A DNA stretch of 64,000 nt from [Eubacterium] infirmum. Its GTDB lineage: Bacteria > Bacillota > Clostridia > Peptostreptococcales > Anaerovoracaceae. Made by a program: the position numbers and the translations under genes. This document shows positions 46,174 to 52,971 of this stretch, piece by piece (the first letter of the stretch is position 1; each line of letters starts with the position of its first letter). The notes beneath the pieces are model-generated. The model searched no databases. It was not told the DNA's origin and saw nothing but the letters and a program-made list of their open reading frames with translations. The stretch is from NCBI GenBank assembly GCA_900450455.1, contig UGGN01000001.1, positions 248,001 through 312,000 of the forward strand, given 5' to 3'.

Positions 46174-48204
46174 TTGAGAACAATAAGGGTAAAGAGATTA
46201 AGAAGTTTGGTGATTGCGGTGCTTGTGATGTCCATTTTGATGGTGCAACTGGCACTTCCGCCTAGCGCAAGTGCACAGACGGATATGACGAAGAGATCGG
46301 GAAACAACGAGTATCTGATTTCAACGGATAATGGGGCGTGGATAGGGCATGCCGCTCATGATTTTGTCAACAGTAGTAACGAGACGGTTTATTGCGTTCA
46401 GCCGTCAGCTCCATCGAAGGATTCGCTAAAGAATGTCGAGAATGCTTTAAATTATCTTCCGCAGGATGTGATAACTAAAACTGCACTGGGGATTGAGAGC
46501 ATAAGAGGTGCGAGTATCGACGAGTACACCAAGTCGGCACTGCTTCAGGCTTGGGTCTGGATGAATGTGAATGGACACAAGGGATGTTTTACAGATAAGC
46601 GTGTTGATGAAATGTACTCTATGAGAGGTGCTGATCGAGAAACTCAGCGAAACGTAATAGCAGAGGCAAGAAGATACGCAGATGAAAATGCGGGGAAATT
46701 TGTTGGGAAAGGGCTCTATTATAAAGGTTCCAGTGCTGAACAGTCGCAGGTTTTATTTACACTAAGCCCACTAGAGGGAACAGCTGAACTCAAGAAGGAA
46801 ACCGGCGGAAGATCAAAGCTTTTCAGCACATGTCCTAAGATATATAGTCTCGCCGGCGCAATCTATCACGTGCTGGATTCAAATGGAAGGCTTGTCGCTG
46901 AATTGGTCACAGATAAAGACGGAAATACAGATACTAAGTCGCTGAAACCGGGCAGGTATAAGGCTAAGGAGATAAGTGCTCCAGGCAATATGGGCTTGGA
47001 TCCAAATGAACATGAGTTTGAAGTTAAGGCAAATGAGAAATTTGTGATTAGATCAAATGACGAGCCCCTAGCTGCAAAGATTGATGTCTTGATTAAAAAG
47101 AAGGCGGCAGAAAGTAATCAAGACAAGACACTTTCTTTAGCAGGCGCTGAGTTTACAGTTGAATATTTCGCAAGTCTGGACGATGAACCGGGGAATTTAG
47201 AGAGGAAATGGATTTTTATCACTGATAAAGAAGGACAGGTGAAGCTTGATGCTTCATATCTAAAGGATGGAAGCGATGAGCTCTACACAGATGACGATGG
47301 TAAGCCGCTGCTTCCTGTAGGAACTTATAGAATTAACGAAACCAAGGCACCTAAAGGCTTTTGGATTAATAAGGAAGTAAAGACAATTAAGTTAAAACCT
47401 GTCAAGGATGAGAATGGCAAGATATCCATCAGTGAGTACGAAGTTCCAAACTTCGAGGAGAGGGAACAAACGATTAGAGTGCGAGTTAGGAAGTTAAGTG
47501 AGGGCGATGCAAAGCCTCTTGTCGGAGCTCATTTTGATTTGAAGAGAATCGCCGATGCAGATGGAAAAGCGCTCAATAAGTTTGAAGAAGCCCAAGTAGA
47601 AAAATTGATTACAGGTGAAGATGGAATTGCAGAAAAAGCCGGTTTGCTTCCCGGAATTTATGAACTGAAGGAAACCAAATCTCCGGATGGATATGCTATC
47701 AGCAAGGAGATTCACAGAATTGAGGCTAAAGGCACTGAGGGAGATACTATAGTGAACGGTACCGACGGTGAAAGAGAGTTTTTATATGAATCGCAAATAA
47801 ACAATGCGAAGATTAAACTTGAAATATCAAAGCTTACGCTTAGCAATGGCAAGAAGCATTCACTAAGCGGTGCGGAACTTCTGCTCAAGGATTCCGATGG
47901 AAAAATTGTTGACAGATGGATCAGCGATAGGAATCCACATAGAATTGAAGGGATAAAGGAAGGTAGATACACGATTATTGAGGAGAAAGCGCCACAAGGA
48001 TACGAGAGGCTTTCAAGTCCGGTAGAGATAAATGTAGAGAATACCGCTGAAATTCAGCATTTTGATGTAAACAATGAAAAAACACCGGACAAACCGAATA
48101 CCGGGGATTTACCTAACATAGGTGGATATGTACTTAGCCTTGTCTCCGGTTTTATTCTGTTCTGGATTTTGACAGGTTTCGGTGGTAAAAAGAACAGGCT
48201 ATAG
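46174..48204 (+). CDS. Surface protein with thioester domain, Cna-B-like repeats and sortase signal
   Basis: A 676-residue surface protein. A signal peptide (about 1-35, ending PPSASA) is followed by a likely thioester adhesin domain: Cys74 in VYCVQP and Gln125 in LLQAWVW fit the two-residue pattern for an internal Cys-Gln bond. Four Cna-B/SpaA-type beta domains follow (about 190-290, 293-425, 427-535, 536-630), with closing E in YKAKEISAP, YRINETKAPKG, YELKETKSPDG and YTIIEEKAPQG. It ends KPNTGD, a helix and GGKKNRL. Start is TTG with AAAGGAGGT. Probably a pilus or adhesin subunit attaching covalently. Confidence 0.85.
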   Translation: MRTIRVKRLRSLVIAVLVMSILMVQLALPPSASAQTDMTKRSGNNEYLISTDNGAWIGHAAHDFVNSSNETVYCVQPSAPSKDSLKNVENALNYLPQDVITKTALGIESIRGASIDEYTKSALLQAWVWMNVNGHKGCFTDKRVDEMYSMRGADRETQRNVIAEARRYADENAGKFVGKGLYYKGSSAEQSQVLFTLSPLEGTAELKKETGGRSKLFSTCPKIYSLAGAIYHVLDSNGRLVAELVTDKDGNTDTKSLKPGRYKAKEISAPGNMGLDPNEHEFEVKANEKFVIRSNDEPLAAKIDVLIKKKAAESNQDKTLSLAGAEFTVEYFASLDDEPGNLERKWIFITDKEGQVKLDASYLKDGSDELYTDDDGKPLLPVGTYRINETKAPKGFWINKEVKTIKLKPVKDENGKISISEYEVPNFEEREQTIRVRVRKLSEGDAKPLVGAHFDLKRIADADGKALNKFEEAQVEKLITGEDGIAEKAGLLPGIYELKETKSPDGYAISKEIHRIEAKGTEGDTIVNGTDGEREFLYESQINNAKIKLEISKLTLSNGKKHSLSGAELLLKDSDGKIVDRWISDRNPHRIEGIKEGRYTIIEEKAPQGYERLSSPVEINVENTAEIQHFDVNNEKTPDKPNTGDLPNIGGYVLSLVSGFILFWILTGFGGKKNRL

Positions 48205-49562: not shown

Positions 49563-50423
49563 ATGAAGAAAATAAAGGCATTAATTTTAATCGGTGTGCT
49601 TGCGGTTTCAGCAGTAGCACTTGCAGCTTGCGGAAGCAAGAAGGATGGCGCGGTTACAATCGCAGTTCCTAATGACACGACAAATGAAGCGAGAGCACTT
49701 TTGCTCTTACAGTCAAAGGGCTATATCAAACTCAAGGACGGGGCGGGTCTTAATGCAACTATCAGAGACATTGAGGATAAGAACGGAATTGAGTTTAAGG
49801 AAGTCGAAGCGGCACAGGTTCCAAACACACTAAAGGACGTTGACTTTGCAGTAATCAACTCAAACTTTGCTATCGATGCAGGCCTAAATCCTGTTAAGGA
49901 TTCTCTAATCATCGAGGATAACAGTGCTAAGTACGCAAATATCGTCGCTGTTAAAAAGGGACAGGAAAAGACAGATAAGATTAAGGCTCTCGTAGCATCA
50001 CTGGAGAGCAAGCAGGTTGCCGATTACATCAAGAAGAAGTACAACGGAGGCGTTGTAAGCGTAGTTGAAAATCTTGGAGACGGATACGATAAGTCGGTTG
50101 ACTACGATTCACTTAAAGGGACAACAATCACTGTTGCAGCATCGCCTACACCACATGCAGACGTGTTAAAGATTGCTAAGGATATACTTGCAAAGAAGAG
50201 TATTACTTTAGACATAAAGGAATTCACTGATTATGTTCAGCCAAACAAGGTTGTTGACAGCGGAGAAATAGATGCAAACTACTTCCAGCACCTTCCATAC
50301 CTAGAAGCCTTTAATAAGGAAAACGGAACAAAGATTGTATCTGTAGGAGCAATCCACAACGAGCCAATGGGTCTATACGCCGGTAAGACAAAGTCACTGG
50401 ATTCACTAAAGAAGCTGAAATAG
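49563..50423 (+). CDS. metQ: MetQ/NlpA methionine-binding lipoprotein, apparently circularly permuted
   Basis: A 286-residue lipoprotein: signal peptide and lipobox LAAC with Cys23. The order of MetQ blocks is reversed. Right after the anchor comes what is normally the second half (VTIAVPNDTTNEARALLLL, KLKDGAGL, EAAQVP, FAVINSNFAIDAGLNP, SPYAN-like KYANIVAV, to about residue 170). Then from residue 187 comes what is normally the first half (TVAASPTPHADVLKIAKDIL, EFTDYVQPNKVV, EIDANYFQHLPYL, HNEPMGLYAGKTKSLDSLK). All blocks occur once. It should still bind D/L-methionine and feed MetNI. Confidence 0.88.
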   Translation: MKKIKALILIGVLAVSAVALAACGSKKDGAVTIAVPNDTTNEARALLLLQSKGYIKLKDGAGLNATIRDIEDKNGIEFKEVEAAQVPNTLKDVDFAVINSNFAIDAGLNPVKDSLIIEDNSAKYANIVAVKKGQEKTDKIKALVASLESKQVADYIKKKYNGGVVSVVENLGDGYDKSVDYDSLKGTTITVAASPTPHADVLKIAKDILAKKSITLDIKEFTDYVQPNKVVDSGEIDANYFQHLPYLEAFNKENGTKIVSVGAIHNEPMGLYAGKTKSLDSLKKLK

Positions 50424-50491: not shown

Positions 50492-51541
50492 ATGATTGAA
50501 TTAAAGAATATATCAAAAACATTTGAAACAAAAGACGGAAAAGTAGAAGCGCTAAAGGATATCGCCATCAAGATTAAAGATGGCGATATTTATGGCATTA
50601 TAGGAATGAGTGGCGCAGGGAAGAGTACTCTGGTTCGCTGTATCAATCTGCTTGAGGTTCCAACATCGGGCGCTGTTATTGTGGATGGGAAAGATCTAAC
50701 AAAACTTAGGCCAAAGGAACTCAGAACAGCTAGGAAGAGAATAACGATGATTTTCCAAAGCTTTAATCTTTTGATGCAGAAAACATGTTTGCAAAACATA
50801 TGCTTTCCACTATTGACGAGCAGGGTAAAGCGAAAGCTAGCTGTTAAGAGGGGTAGAGAACTGCTCAAGCTCGTTGGGCTTGAGGATAAGGAAAATGCTT
50901 ACCCTGCTCAGCTTTCCGGTGGACAAAAGCAAAGAATTGCAATAGCTAGGGCACTTGCAACAGATCCTAAGGTGTTGCTTTGCGACGAGGCGACCAGTGC
51001 GCTTGATCCGAAGACGACAAATCAGATTCTTGATTTGCTGTCAAAGATTAATCGTGAGCTTGGAATTACTGTAGTAATAATCACCCATCAGATGTCCGTC
51101 GTTGAGAGAATATGCAATAAGGTTACGATTCTTGATAACGGTTGCGTAGCAGAGAGTGGCAGTGTAACGGAGATATTTGCAAGGCCTGAATCTGAGGCGG
51201 GGAAAAGGCTGGTATTTCCTGATAAGGCGGAACAGGGGCTAGCTACATATAGGAAGGATAGGTCGGTTATATCCGTTTCATTTAACGACTCTGAGACTAC
51301 TGAGTCCCCGCTTATTGCGGACCTTGCAATTACACTTGGAATACCTGCGAGCATACTATATGCTTCGACAAAATCGCTGGACGGCAAAGCTTTTGGGAAG
51401 ATGCTTTTGGGCGTCAAAAAAGAAGGGGATAATGTCGATAGAGTGCTCAAATTTTTAAATGAGCACGATGGTGTACTGGCTGAGCTGGAGGATATAAGCA
51501 AATTAAGAATGGAGGTGGCGTCTGATGAGAGATTTAATTAA
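50492..51541 (+). CDS. metN: Methionine ABC transporter ATPase
   Basis: A 349-residue ATPase with Walker A GMSGAGKSTLVRCIN, signature LSGGQKQRIAIARAL, Walker B VLLCDEATSALDP and the H-loop IITHQMSVV. From about 265 to the end it has the NIL/ACT-like domain that in MetN binds methionine and inhibits transport. Typical length. It follows metQ and overlaps metI by 17 bases. Confidence 0.95.
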   Translation: MIELKNISKTFETKDGKVEALKDIAIKIKDGDIYGIIGMSGAGKSTLVRCINLLEVPTSGAVIVDGKDLTKLRPKELRTARKRITMIFQSFNLLMQKTCLQNICFPLLTSRVKRKLAVKRGRELLKLVGLEDKENAYPAQLSGGQKQRIAIARALATDPKVLLCDEATSALDPKTTNQILDLLSKINRELGITVVIITHQMSVVERICNKVTILDNGCVAESGSVTEIFARPESEAGKRLVFPDKAEQGLATYRKDRSVISVSFNDSETTESPLIADLAITLGIPASILYASTKSLDGKAFGKMLLGVKKEGDNVDRVLKFLNEHDGVLAELEDISKLRMEVASDERFN

Positions 51542-52232
51542 CAGCATGATTGCTGATGGAAAACTTCAGGAAACCCTAGAAATCATTAGGGATGAAATGC
51601 CGCTTGCAATATGGGAAAGCTTTTATATGACAGTCATCGCCACTGCTGCTGCAATAGCAATAGGCTTGCCGCTTGGAGTGATTTTGGTTACGGGGGAAAA
51701 GGACGGAATAATGCCGATACCTACAATCCTGTACAAGGGAATAAATGCGGTGATAAATCTTTTGAGGTCAGTGCCATTTTTGATTTTGATTATCATGGTA
51801 ACGCCGATTACGAGATTCATAGTCGATACGGTTGTTGGTACAGGTGCTTCGGTCGTACCGCTTGTCGTTGCGTCATTCCCGTTTGTAGCAAGGCTTGTTG
51901 AGACGAGTATCAGGGAGGTAGATTCTAACGTTATAGAGGCGGCAGTGAGCATGGGTGCAACTCCTATGCAAATCGTAAGGAGAGTTTTGATTCCGGAGAG
52001 CCTTCCTTCTCTAATTTCAAACTTTACAATAGCTATAACGACAATTCTGGGATATTCAGCTATGAGTGCAATACTCGGTGGCGGCGGTCTGGGAAAAATC
52101 GCCATCAACTACGGTTACTACAGGCGCAAGACCTTGGTTATGATTGTTGCAGTTGCTTTGATTGTCCTAATGGTTCAGTTGTTCCAGACGATAGGGTCAA
52201 AGCTCGCTGCTAAGTTCGACAAGAGATTATAG
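51525..52232 (+). CDS. metI: Methionine ABC transporter permease
   Basis: A 235-residue membrane protein with five helices and the EAA loop coupling motif (EAAVSMGATPMQIVRRVLIPESLPSL). With MetN and MetQ it forms a methionine importer. GGAGGTGG lies inside metN, 7 bases before the ATG. Normal domain order, unlike metQ. Confidence 0.95.
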   Translation: MRDLINSMIADGKLQETLEIIRDEMPLAIWESFYMTVIATAAAIAIGLPLGVILVTGEKDGIMPIPTILYKGINAVINLLRSVPFLILIIMVTPITRFIVDTVVGTGASVVPLVVASFPFVARLVETSIREVDSNVIEAAVSMGATPMQIVRRVLIPESLPSLISNFTIAITTILGYSAMSAILGGGGLGKIAINYGYYRRKTLVMIVAVALIVLMVQLFQTIGSKLAAKFDKRL

Positions 52233-52311: not shown

Positions 52312-52971
52312 ATGAGCTTCGATTTCACATTTATAGAGATAATGGATATGATAGGGACGATTGCCTTTGCTCTTTCCGGTGCTGCTGTCGCGGCACGTAA
52401 GGGCATGGATATATTCGGTATCAATATCCTTGCATTGGTAACGGCAACCGGCGGAGGAGTTATACGCGATATCATCGTAGGTATGAATCCTCCTCTTTCA
52501 TTTCAAAACCCAATCTATCTAGTTGCGTCGCTGATTACCGCAAATATAGCTTTCATCATCATGAACCTGAGAAAGGGAAAGGCTGAGGACCACTTCGTTG
52601 TAGTCCCCGAAAGGGCGTTATTTTGGTTTGACACGGTAGGCCTTGCTGCTTTTACAGTCGATGGTGCAATAGTGGGATATAATTCGCAGACTGTTGCACA
52701 TCTCTTTTTGATTGTTTTTCTCGGCGTTGTTACAGGTGTTGGCGGAGGAGTCCTAAGAGATATGATGGCGTGTGAGATGCCGTATGTATTTGTAAAGCAT
52801 GTCTATGCCTTTGCATCGGTTCTCGGGGGAATTCTCACAGGTTCGCTTTTAATTATGGAGTTGACGAGCAAAAATGTGGCAATCGCAGCGGGGTTTGCTC
52901 TTACTATTTTGATTAGAGTGCTTGCTGCACATTTTAGGTGGAATTTACCACGTATTGAGGAAAGGAAATAA
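52312..52971 (+). CDS. TRIC/UPF0126-family membrane protein
   Basis: A 219-residue protein with seven helices and the paired glycine-rich repeats GGGVIRDIIVG and GGGVLRDMMAC of the UPF0126 (YicG/YadS) family, related to TRIC cation channels. Function in bacteria is thought to be ion or amino acid passage. A promoter TTGATA (52258-52263) - 16 bp - TATTAT (52280-52285) may drive it and the following flavin reductase, whose ATG overlaps its end nearly exactly. Confidence 0.87.
   Translation: MSFDFTFIEIMDMIGTIAFALSGAAVAARKGMDIFGINILALVTATGGGVIRDIIVGMNPPLSFQNPIYLVASLITANIAFIIMNLRKGKAEDHFVVVPERALFWFDTVGLAAFTVDGAIVGYNSQTVAHLFLIVFLGVVTGVGGGVLRDMMACEMPYVFVKHVYAFASVLGGILTGSLLIMELTSKNVAIAAGFALTILIRVLAAHFRWNLPRIEERK

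Follow-up and report, generated by a model that had tools for sequence, protein, structure and literature searches.

TpMglB-2 (Tp0684) of Treponema pallidum, classed as 'Type Ic / Cluster Bc', has been described as a glucose-binding lipoprotein that is circularly permuted in nature (PMC4990184); the topology was reported in other treponemes and in Gram-positive bacteria, the protein has gained a crossing segment and still binds its ligand, and its authors proposed tethering as a cause (PMC4990184). Permutation relations among glycine betaine-binding proteins (OpuAC, ProX), molybdate-binding proteins and CysB were found with CPSARST (PMC2395249), and ribose-binding protein with engineered permuted halves indicates that a bilobed binding protein tolerates being cut and put together in another order (PMC9815098). 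Natural permuted binding proteins are on record, and the kind is therefore already known; no report of a permuted MetQ was found in the open-licence PMC literature.

The gene analysed here, in a window of 64,000 nucleotides (the whole stretch of DNA that was examined), encodes a MetQ lipoprotein in which the two halves of the chain stand in exchanged order. Like TpMglB-2, it is a natural permutant of a tethered ABC binding protein whose anchor has shifted to another place of the fold; TpMglB-2 is a type I glucose-binding protein, whereas MetQ belongs to another fold class. The permuted part of TpMglB-2 is 13% identical to its canonical counterpart (figure of its authors; PMC4990184), so that its origin is not traceable by sequence, whereas permuted and canonical MetQ are about 50–60% identical. 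The families collected with CPSARST likewise show circular-permutation relations among bilobed binding proteins, but these were found structurally, at <24% identity between diverged families, whereas the MetQ case lies within one orthologous family; the ribose-binding protein permutants are laboratory constructs, whereas the permuted metQ genes are natural. With canonical MetQ/NlpA (E. coli, N. meningitidis) the permuted form shares sequence blocks, ligand residues, lipobox and the metN/metI partners, and it differs in the swapped halves, an extra linker of about 19 residues and a lipid anchor on the other half. New here are the family, the closeness of permuted and canonical forms, a traceable linker, a candidate surviving tandem stage and a likely recurrence.

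Order of the MetQ halves and the operon

The permuted ORF (49563–50423, + strand, 286 aa) has an ATG start and a TAG stop. Its chain runs from a signal peptide with LAAC lipobox through the canonical C-terminal half (28–168) and a linker to the canonical N-terminal half (about 185–284), and stops right after SLDSLKKLK. The features of the ORF and of the two genes behind it, with the basis of each assignment in brackets, are:

49563..49628, + strand: signal peptide, residues 1–22, ending in the lipobox LAA/C (read from the translation)
49629..49643, + strand: lipobox Cys23 and the short start of the mature chain, CGSKK, which forms the new N-terminus (sequence)
49644..50066, + strand: canonical C-terminal half, residues 28–168, beginning GAVTIAVPNDTTNEAR (PF03180 profile 96–234; PDB alignments)
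50067..50120, + strand: linker between the old C- and N-termini, residues 169–186, VENLGDGYDKSVDYDSLKG region (sequence comparison)
50121..50414, + strand: canonical N-terminal half, residues 187–284, with SPTPHAD, DYVQPN, DANYFQH, EPMGLY and SLDSL (PDB alignments)
50415..50423, + strand: the new C-terminus, with LK as its final two residues, and the TAG stop, right behind the canonical crossing-loop motif SLDSLKK (sequence)
50492..51541, + strand: metN, 349 aa, ATPase with C-terminal NIL domain (Pfam ABC_tran 119 bits, NIL 54.5 bits)
51525..52232, + strand: metI, permease, 235 aa (Pfam BPD_transp_1 69 bits)

Pfam PF03180 matched the protein with 273.2 bits in two stretches (curated cut-off 27), the best of which placed protein residues 28–166 on profile positions 96–234 of 236, so that the C-terminal part of the profile came first and its collinear order was not followed. 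NlpA was the only Pfam family above cut-off, and no homology to type I glucose/galactose-binding proteins was found at that level. A phmmer search of the PDB gave 22 distinct MetQ/NlpA sequences with two matched stretches each, and in all 22 the best stretch was in the swapped register (query ~27–166 on the C-terminal part of the chain, or query ~187–282 on the N-terminal part). Full alignments were examined for 4 of the 22; in that of 4ib2, query 186–283 corresponded to chain 10–107 (i-Evalue 2.2e-33) and query 32–165 to chain 111–249 (i-Evalue 2.2e-36). NCBIfam TIGR00363 gave 165.1 bits, also in two stretches, and stayed under its cut-off of 228.85, as expected when a model that assumes the canonical order is run against a permuted chain. 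In the structural matches, the first half was 38–52% identical to solved MetQs. Two MetQ domains in one protein (a duplication) were considered and rejected, every block being single-copy in the Pfam and PDB alignments.

The ORF is very probably a natural circular permutant of MetQ that serves as the sole substrate-binding protein of the MetNI methionine importer. A preliminary description, made from the sequence by eye, had proposed such a permutation, with the breakpoint at the join SLDxL / DGAxVAIPND and with every block present once in the length of one MetQ. The Pfam order and the swapped register in the PDB sequences confirm it, the break was located between SLDxL and the (K)DGAxIAVPND strand, the blocks and the length are those of a single MetQ, and a collinear canonical order, which it had named as one way to be wrong, is excluded by the same matches. 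The conserved linker with its traceable origin, the spread over many genomes and the probable repeated origin go beyond that description.

metN and metI follow and have normal domains (ABC_tran and NIL; BPD_transp_1), as had been claimed, though both scored under the NCBIfam cut-offs (MetN 347.7 of 499.7 bits; MetI 189.8 bits with its best match PRK10782.1, cut-off 212). With its lipobox and its operon with metN (NIL) and metI, the protein belongs to the MetQ/NlpA family, and no second match to it was found in the genome, which is 99.6% complete. No riboswitch or T-box in the window matched Rfam at gathering score, and a search for a methionine-responsive leader at relaxed threshold returned just an AfaR match below cut-off (E 1.7). 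In the 13 loci searched for a T-box leader directly 5′ of the permuted metQ, one was found (L018, 4707–4956), and its specifier was read by eye as AUG (methionine). A glycine transporter family protein (PF03458, two stretches) is encoded directly downstream of metI at 52312–52971. Further upstream, 46174–48204 encodes a putative 676-aa surface protein that ends in an LPxTG-like sorting signal (DLPNIGG region and membrane segment, by eye), which precedes genes resembling rplM and rpsI (named by eye).

Relatives, linker and the origin of the permuted order

The best 80 loci of a GTDB genome-contig scan comprised 71 in permuted and 9 in canonical order; the permuted ones came mostly from Clostridia and relatives, and four from Treponema or Spirochaetaceae. 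Two permuted MetQs from the latter (L064:5001–5843 and L065:2652–3443) have a signal peptide seemingly without the lipobox Cys, and the L064 contig also holds a diverged canonical MetQ at 321–920. Within the genus of the window genome the permuted gene was present in 2 of 13 genomes and was not found in ten; the remaining one gave two half-matches on separate contigs and nothing more. In the family the count was at least 32 of 349 genomes, 28 with the main type (two as partial matches) and 4 with a diverged type at 32–34% identity. Among 297 genomes sampled evenly across the order, every full-length match among those listed belonged to the family of the window genome; even sampling of the class gave the main type in 17 of 391 genomes from nine families (the window genome and two near relatives included), and a phylum sample gave it in 3 of 299, two of which had been counted already. 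From the loci fetched, 119 permuted ORFs (108 distinct, the window's own included) and 80 canonical ORFs (78 distinct) were obtained.

The permuted proteins fell into three groups: main, Gemmiger/Fournierella (L071, L072, L074) and g57 (L113–L116). The order metQ-metN-metI was present in 88 of the 112 main-type ORFs; the other 24 had fewer or differently ordered partners, many on short loci (L008, L010, L033 and L051 sit on 10.8-kb loci).

The old MetQ ends are connected by a linker of about 19 residues, whose main-type consensus is ENPxDGYDxSVDYxALxGT. The same motif was found in 2 of the 80 canonical ORFs, L076 and L077, both from Gemmiger, where it forms an N-terminal tail ahead of the first strand, GDGFDPDIDYAALAGT. 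When these tails were compared with the 112 main-type linkers the median score was 58, against highest means of 25 and 31 in a control with 200 shuffles; other canonical tails gave medians of 19 and 17 against the main linkers, with a few up to 48. The L076 tail is rich in Ser, Thr and Gly. L076, L077 and L119 are among the 9 of 80 canonical ORFs with the order metQ-metN-metI, and in a tree of concatenated MetQ (restored to canonical order), MetN and MetI (817 columns) L076/L077 branched just outside the clade of permuted operons plus L119 (99/95 and 100/99). The likeness of the linker to the Gemmiger MetQ tail and this position just outside the permuted clade fit an origin by tandem duplication and fusion.

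Pairs of metQ genes in tandem and in one reading frame were found on the minus strands of L203 (1075–2697) and L161 (2289–3938), with a single stop and about 30 bases between the copies. In L203 the C-half of copy 1 together with the N-half of copy 2 matched the permuted profile over positions 29–282 of 283 (E 1.3e-88), and the two pairs are a candidate for the state before permutation. Tandem duplication and fusion is the most likely origin of the permuted metQ as judged by these comparisons, and the order of steps may be reconstructed as follows: a canonical metQ with a tail would have been duplicated in tandem and in frame; fusion across the stop would have turned the N-terminal tail of the second copy into the linker; and the N-terminal half of the first copy and the C-terminal half of the second would then have been lost. 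The 564-aa frames of G475 and G1114 were considered as fused double-MetQ ORFs and rejected, since in each of them a stop separates two genes that share the frame. No second MetQ was found in the long open frames of G617 (580 aa) and G881 (521 aa), and the 479-aa open frame of G1045 contains one canonical MetQ. In the former two (L195 and L196) a canonical MetQ lies within the open frame. A chimera of two different metQ lineages was checked for by separate trees of the halves (99 and 143 columns), in which the main group formed a cluster for either half, except for L119 and a few canonical rows; most forks were poorly resolved, and at this resolution the trees give no indication of a chimera.

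All three permuted groups are opened at the same loop, and a single permutation event behind them was weighed, in which two of the groups look separate by fast divergence or operon moves. Besides the common loop, tests of MetQ trees leave room for it: placing the main and Gemmiger groups in one clade gave AU p 0.285 in a 93-row set and a marginal p 0.045 in a 38-row set, and placing main and g57 together was not rejected (p 0.261, 38-row set), so that an independent origin of the three groups is not established from the MetQ trees alone. Against it, the three groups are separate in the MetQ trees, where the starred branches require three changes; the linkers of the Gemmiger group and g57 are unlike those of the main group (scores of 12–16 and 17–23 against the tail that main linkers match with a median of 58); their operons have the order metN-metI-metQ (2 of 3 Gemmiger-group and 3 of 4 g57 loci, the remainder incomplete) instead of metQ-metN-metI; and under MetN+MetI trees (quick tree) one clade with the main group is rejected for both the Gemmiger group (AU p 3.9e-7) and g57 (p 0.020). 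A single event appears doubtful. The MetN+MetI result speaks for separate operon lineages, between which a permuted metQ could have moved. The MetN of the Gemmiger group in L071 (272 aa) ends before the expected NIL region, as read from the sequence. Given the unlike linkers and operons, the permutation probably recurred, and two or more origins of the permuted MetQ seem likely on these sequence comparisons, though unproven, as the MetQ trees alone do not settle the matter.

L119 (G327, 1969–2769) is a canonical-order metQ in a metQ-metN-metI operon. Its MetN+MetI fell inside the permuted clade adjoining L101/L103/L105 (98*, quick tree), its C-half grouped with L101/L102 inside the main group (96*), and whole-protein and concatenated trees placed it next to the permuted clade or within it. 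Two readings fit: L119 is the closest relative that was never permuted, or it has returned to canonical order. With L119 so placed, change in this region of the tree could have run in either direction. The reverse direction overall, with the permuted order first and L076/L077 (and L119) as returns that kept the linker as an N-terminal tail, would account for the confinement of the tail motif to two of 80 canonical ORFs and for the neighbours of L119; but L076/L077 lie outside the permuted clade (99/95), which requires two returns against at most one, and monophyly of the main group without L119 was not rejected (AU p 0.307), and this direction is unlikely. A history in which MetQ was permuted at the same loop at least twice, perhaps three times, each time from an in-frame tandem duplication, with a return to canonical order in L119/G327, is put forward tentatively and as a serious possibility.

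Predicted fold, methionine contacts and signs of function

An AlphaFold2 model of the permuted MetQ (54-row alignment) had a mean pLDDT of 88.2 and a pTM of 0.78, with low confidence at residues 16–26, as expected from the signal peptide and its junction there. Structural comparison (VIA) gave 13 MetQ-type chains among the 50 matches listed, aligned over 132–151 residues, and 12 of the 13 aligned inside model residues 25–171 (one half) only; this is what a permutation predicts, since a sequential aligner cannot follow it. OpuAC chains aligned across model residues 30–284 (216–222 residues, rmsd 4.7–5.3 Å); that other type II binding proteins match over the full length is probably due to the pseudo-twofold symmetry of the fold, since a swap of halves would then leave the topology as it is and exchange the lobes. 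For the diverged g57 protein L115 a model with pLDDT 88.4 and pTM 0.80 was obtained, in which 22 of the 23 listed MetQ-type chains aligned within residues 33–183. A collinear full-length MetQ match was present for neither model among the matches listed; a new fold is not supported by this absence, which is expected for permutants.

In NmMetQ, one domain contributes R156, N213 and N238 to the methionine contacts, and the other lobe contributes Y81, F98, H100 and Y103 (PMC6739813). In the permuted protein the former correspond to R44, N99 and N126 of the C-half and the latter to Y224, F241, H243 and Y246 of the N-half. The spacing of Y/F/H/Y is exactly that of NmMetQ, R44 and N126 fit the offset of the structural alignment (VIA) exactly, and N213 corresponds by that offset to N99 or N101, the latter nearly invariant. 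All seven contact positions are among the 29 invariant columns in the alignment of 54 permuted proteins, which covers the two diverged types too. Four ligand-motif patterns were all present in 114 of the 119 permuted ORFs; the five misses were three truncated copies and two diverged full-length proteins, L107 and L109, each without one pattern. With the ligand residues so divided between the halves (PMC6739813), the new ends would lie in the crossing between the two lobes. Against the closest relative, the 94% identical copy of G012, dN/dS was 0.043 (dN 0.026, dS 0.611), and 0.022 and 0.050 for the separate halves.

The preliminary description had called the transporter probably functional and had suggested structure prediction and a search for relatives of the same order. 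The prediction yielded a confident AlphaFold model, the relatives were found in the scans and family genomes given above, and function is supported, at the level of sequence and model, by invariant ligand positions, strong purifying selection and the confident predicted fold. The permuted chain would fold as an ordinary two-lobed MetQ, close on methionine and deliver it to MetNI; its membrane anchor would now sit on the half whose R, N and N bind the amino acid head group, and that of the canonical protein on the half whose Y, F, H and Y pack the side chain. From the TIGR00363, NCBIfam MetN and NCBIfam MetI scores, all below cut-off, one might suspect a paralogue that takes another ligand and no longer serves methionine transport, but this is very improbable: the TIGR00363 shortfall is expected of any permuted chain, the seven methionine-contact positions are invariant, the protein is the only MetQ match in its genome, and a T-box with a specifier read as AUG stands ahead of the gene in one relative.

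Independent assemblies and meaning for the MetQ family

An assembly or binning artefact, the other way to be wrong named in the preliminary description, in which an ordinary tandem metQ pair was collapsed by the assembler into a permuted gene, can practically be discounted: in-frame pairs that a wrong cut would turn into such an order do exist (L161, L203) and all 71 permuted loci of the GTDB scan come from MAG or uncultured records, but the window genome consists of 2 contigs, a genome of 1 contig carries a permuted copy with 94% identity, 108 distinct proteins show this order together with a conserved linker, an intact signal peptide stands straight before the C-half, the ORF ends right after SLDxL with metN next, and assembly error is excluded because independent assemblies show the same order.

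To our knowledge, most natural circular permutations have been recognised by comparing distant proteins, by which time the events have been erased. At about 50–60% identity, with the same partners and ligand positions and a nameable linker donor, the duplication-fusion model becomes testable on real sequences. The rearrangement is shared by relatives from other gut bacteria, and it is a suitable natural case for asking how a protein tolerates being opened and re-joined. If the history with repeated permutation and a return in L119 is true, tandem pairs, ancestral tail, permutant and revertant all survive and would form a nearly complete natural record of a permutation and its reversal. For annotation, profile searches that assume a collinear order put the permuted genes below cut-offs. 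Interaction of MetQ with MetNI has been reported to need lipidation (PMC8416018), and the place of the anchor could therefore matter. The question whether docking on an ABC importer depends on which lobe carries the membrane anchor has come up, without being settled, for TpMglB-2, and the permuted MetQ offers a natural test of it.
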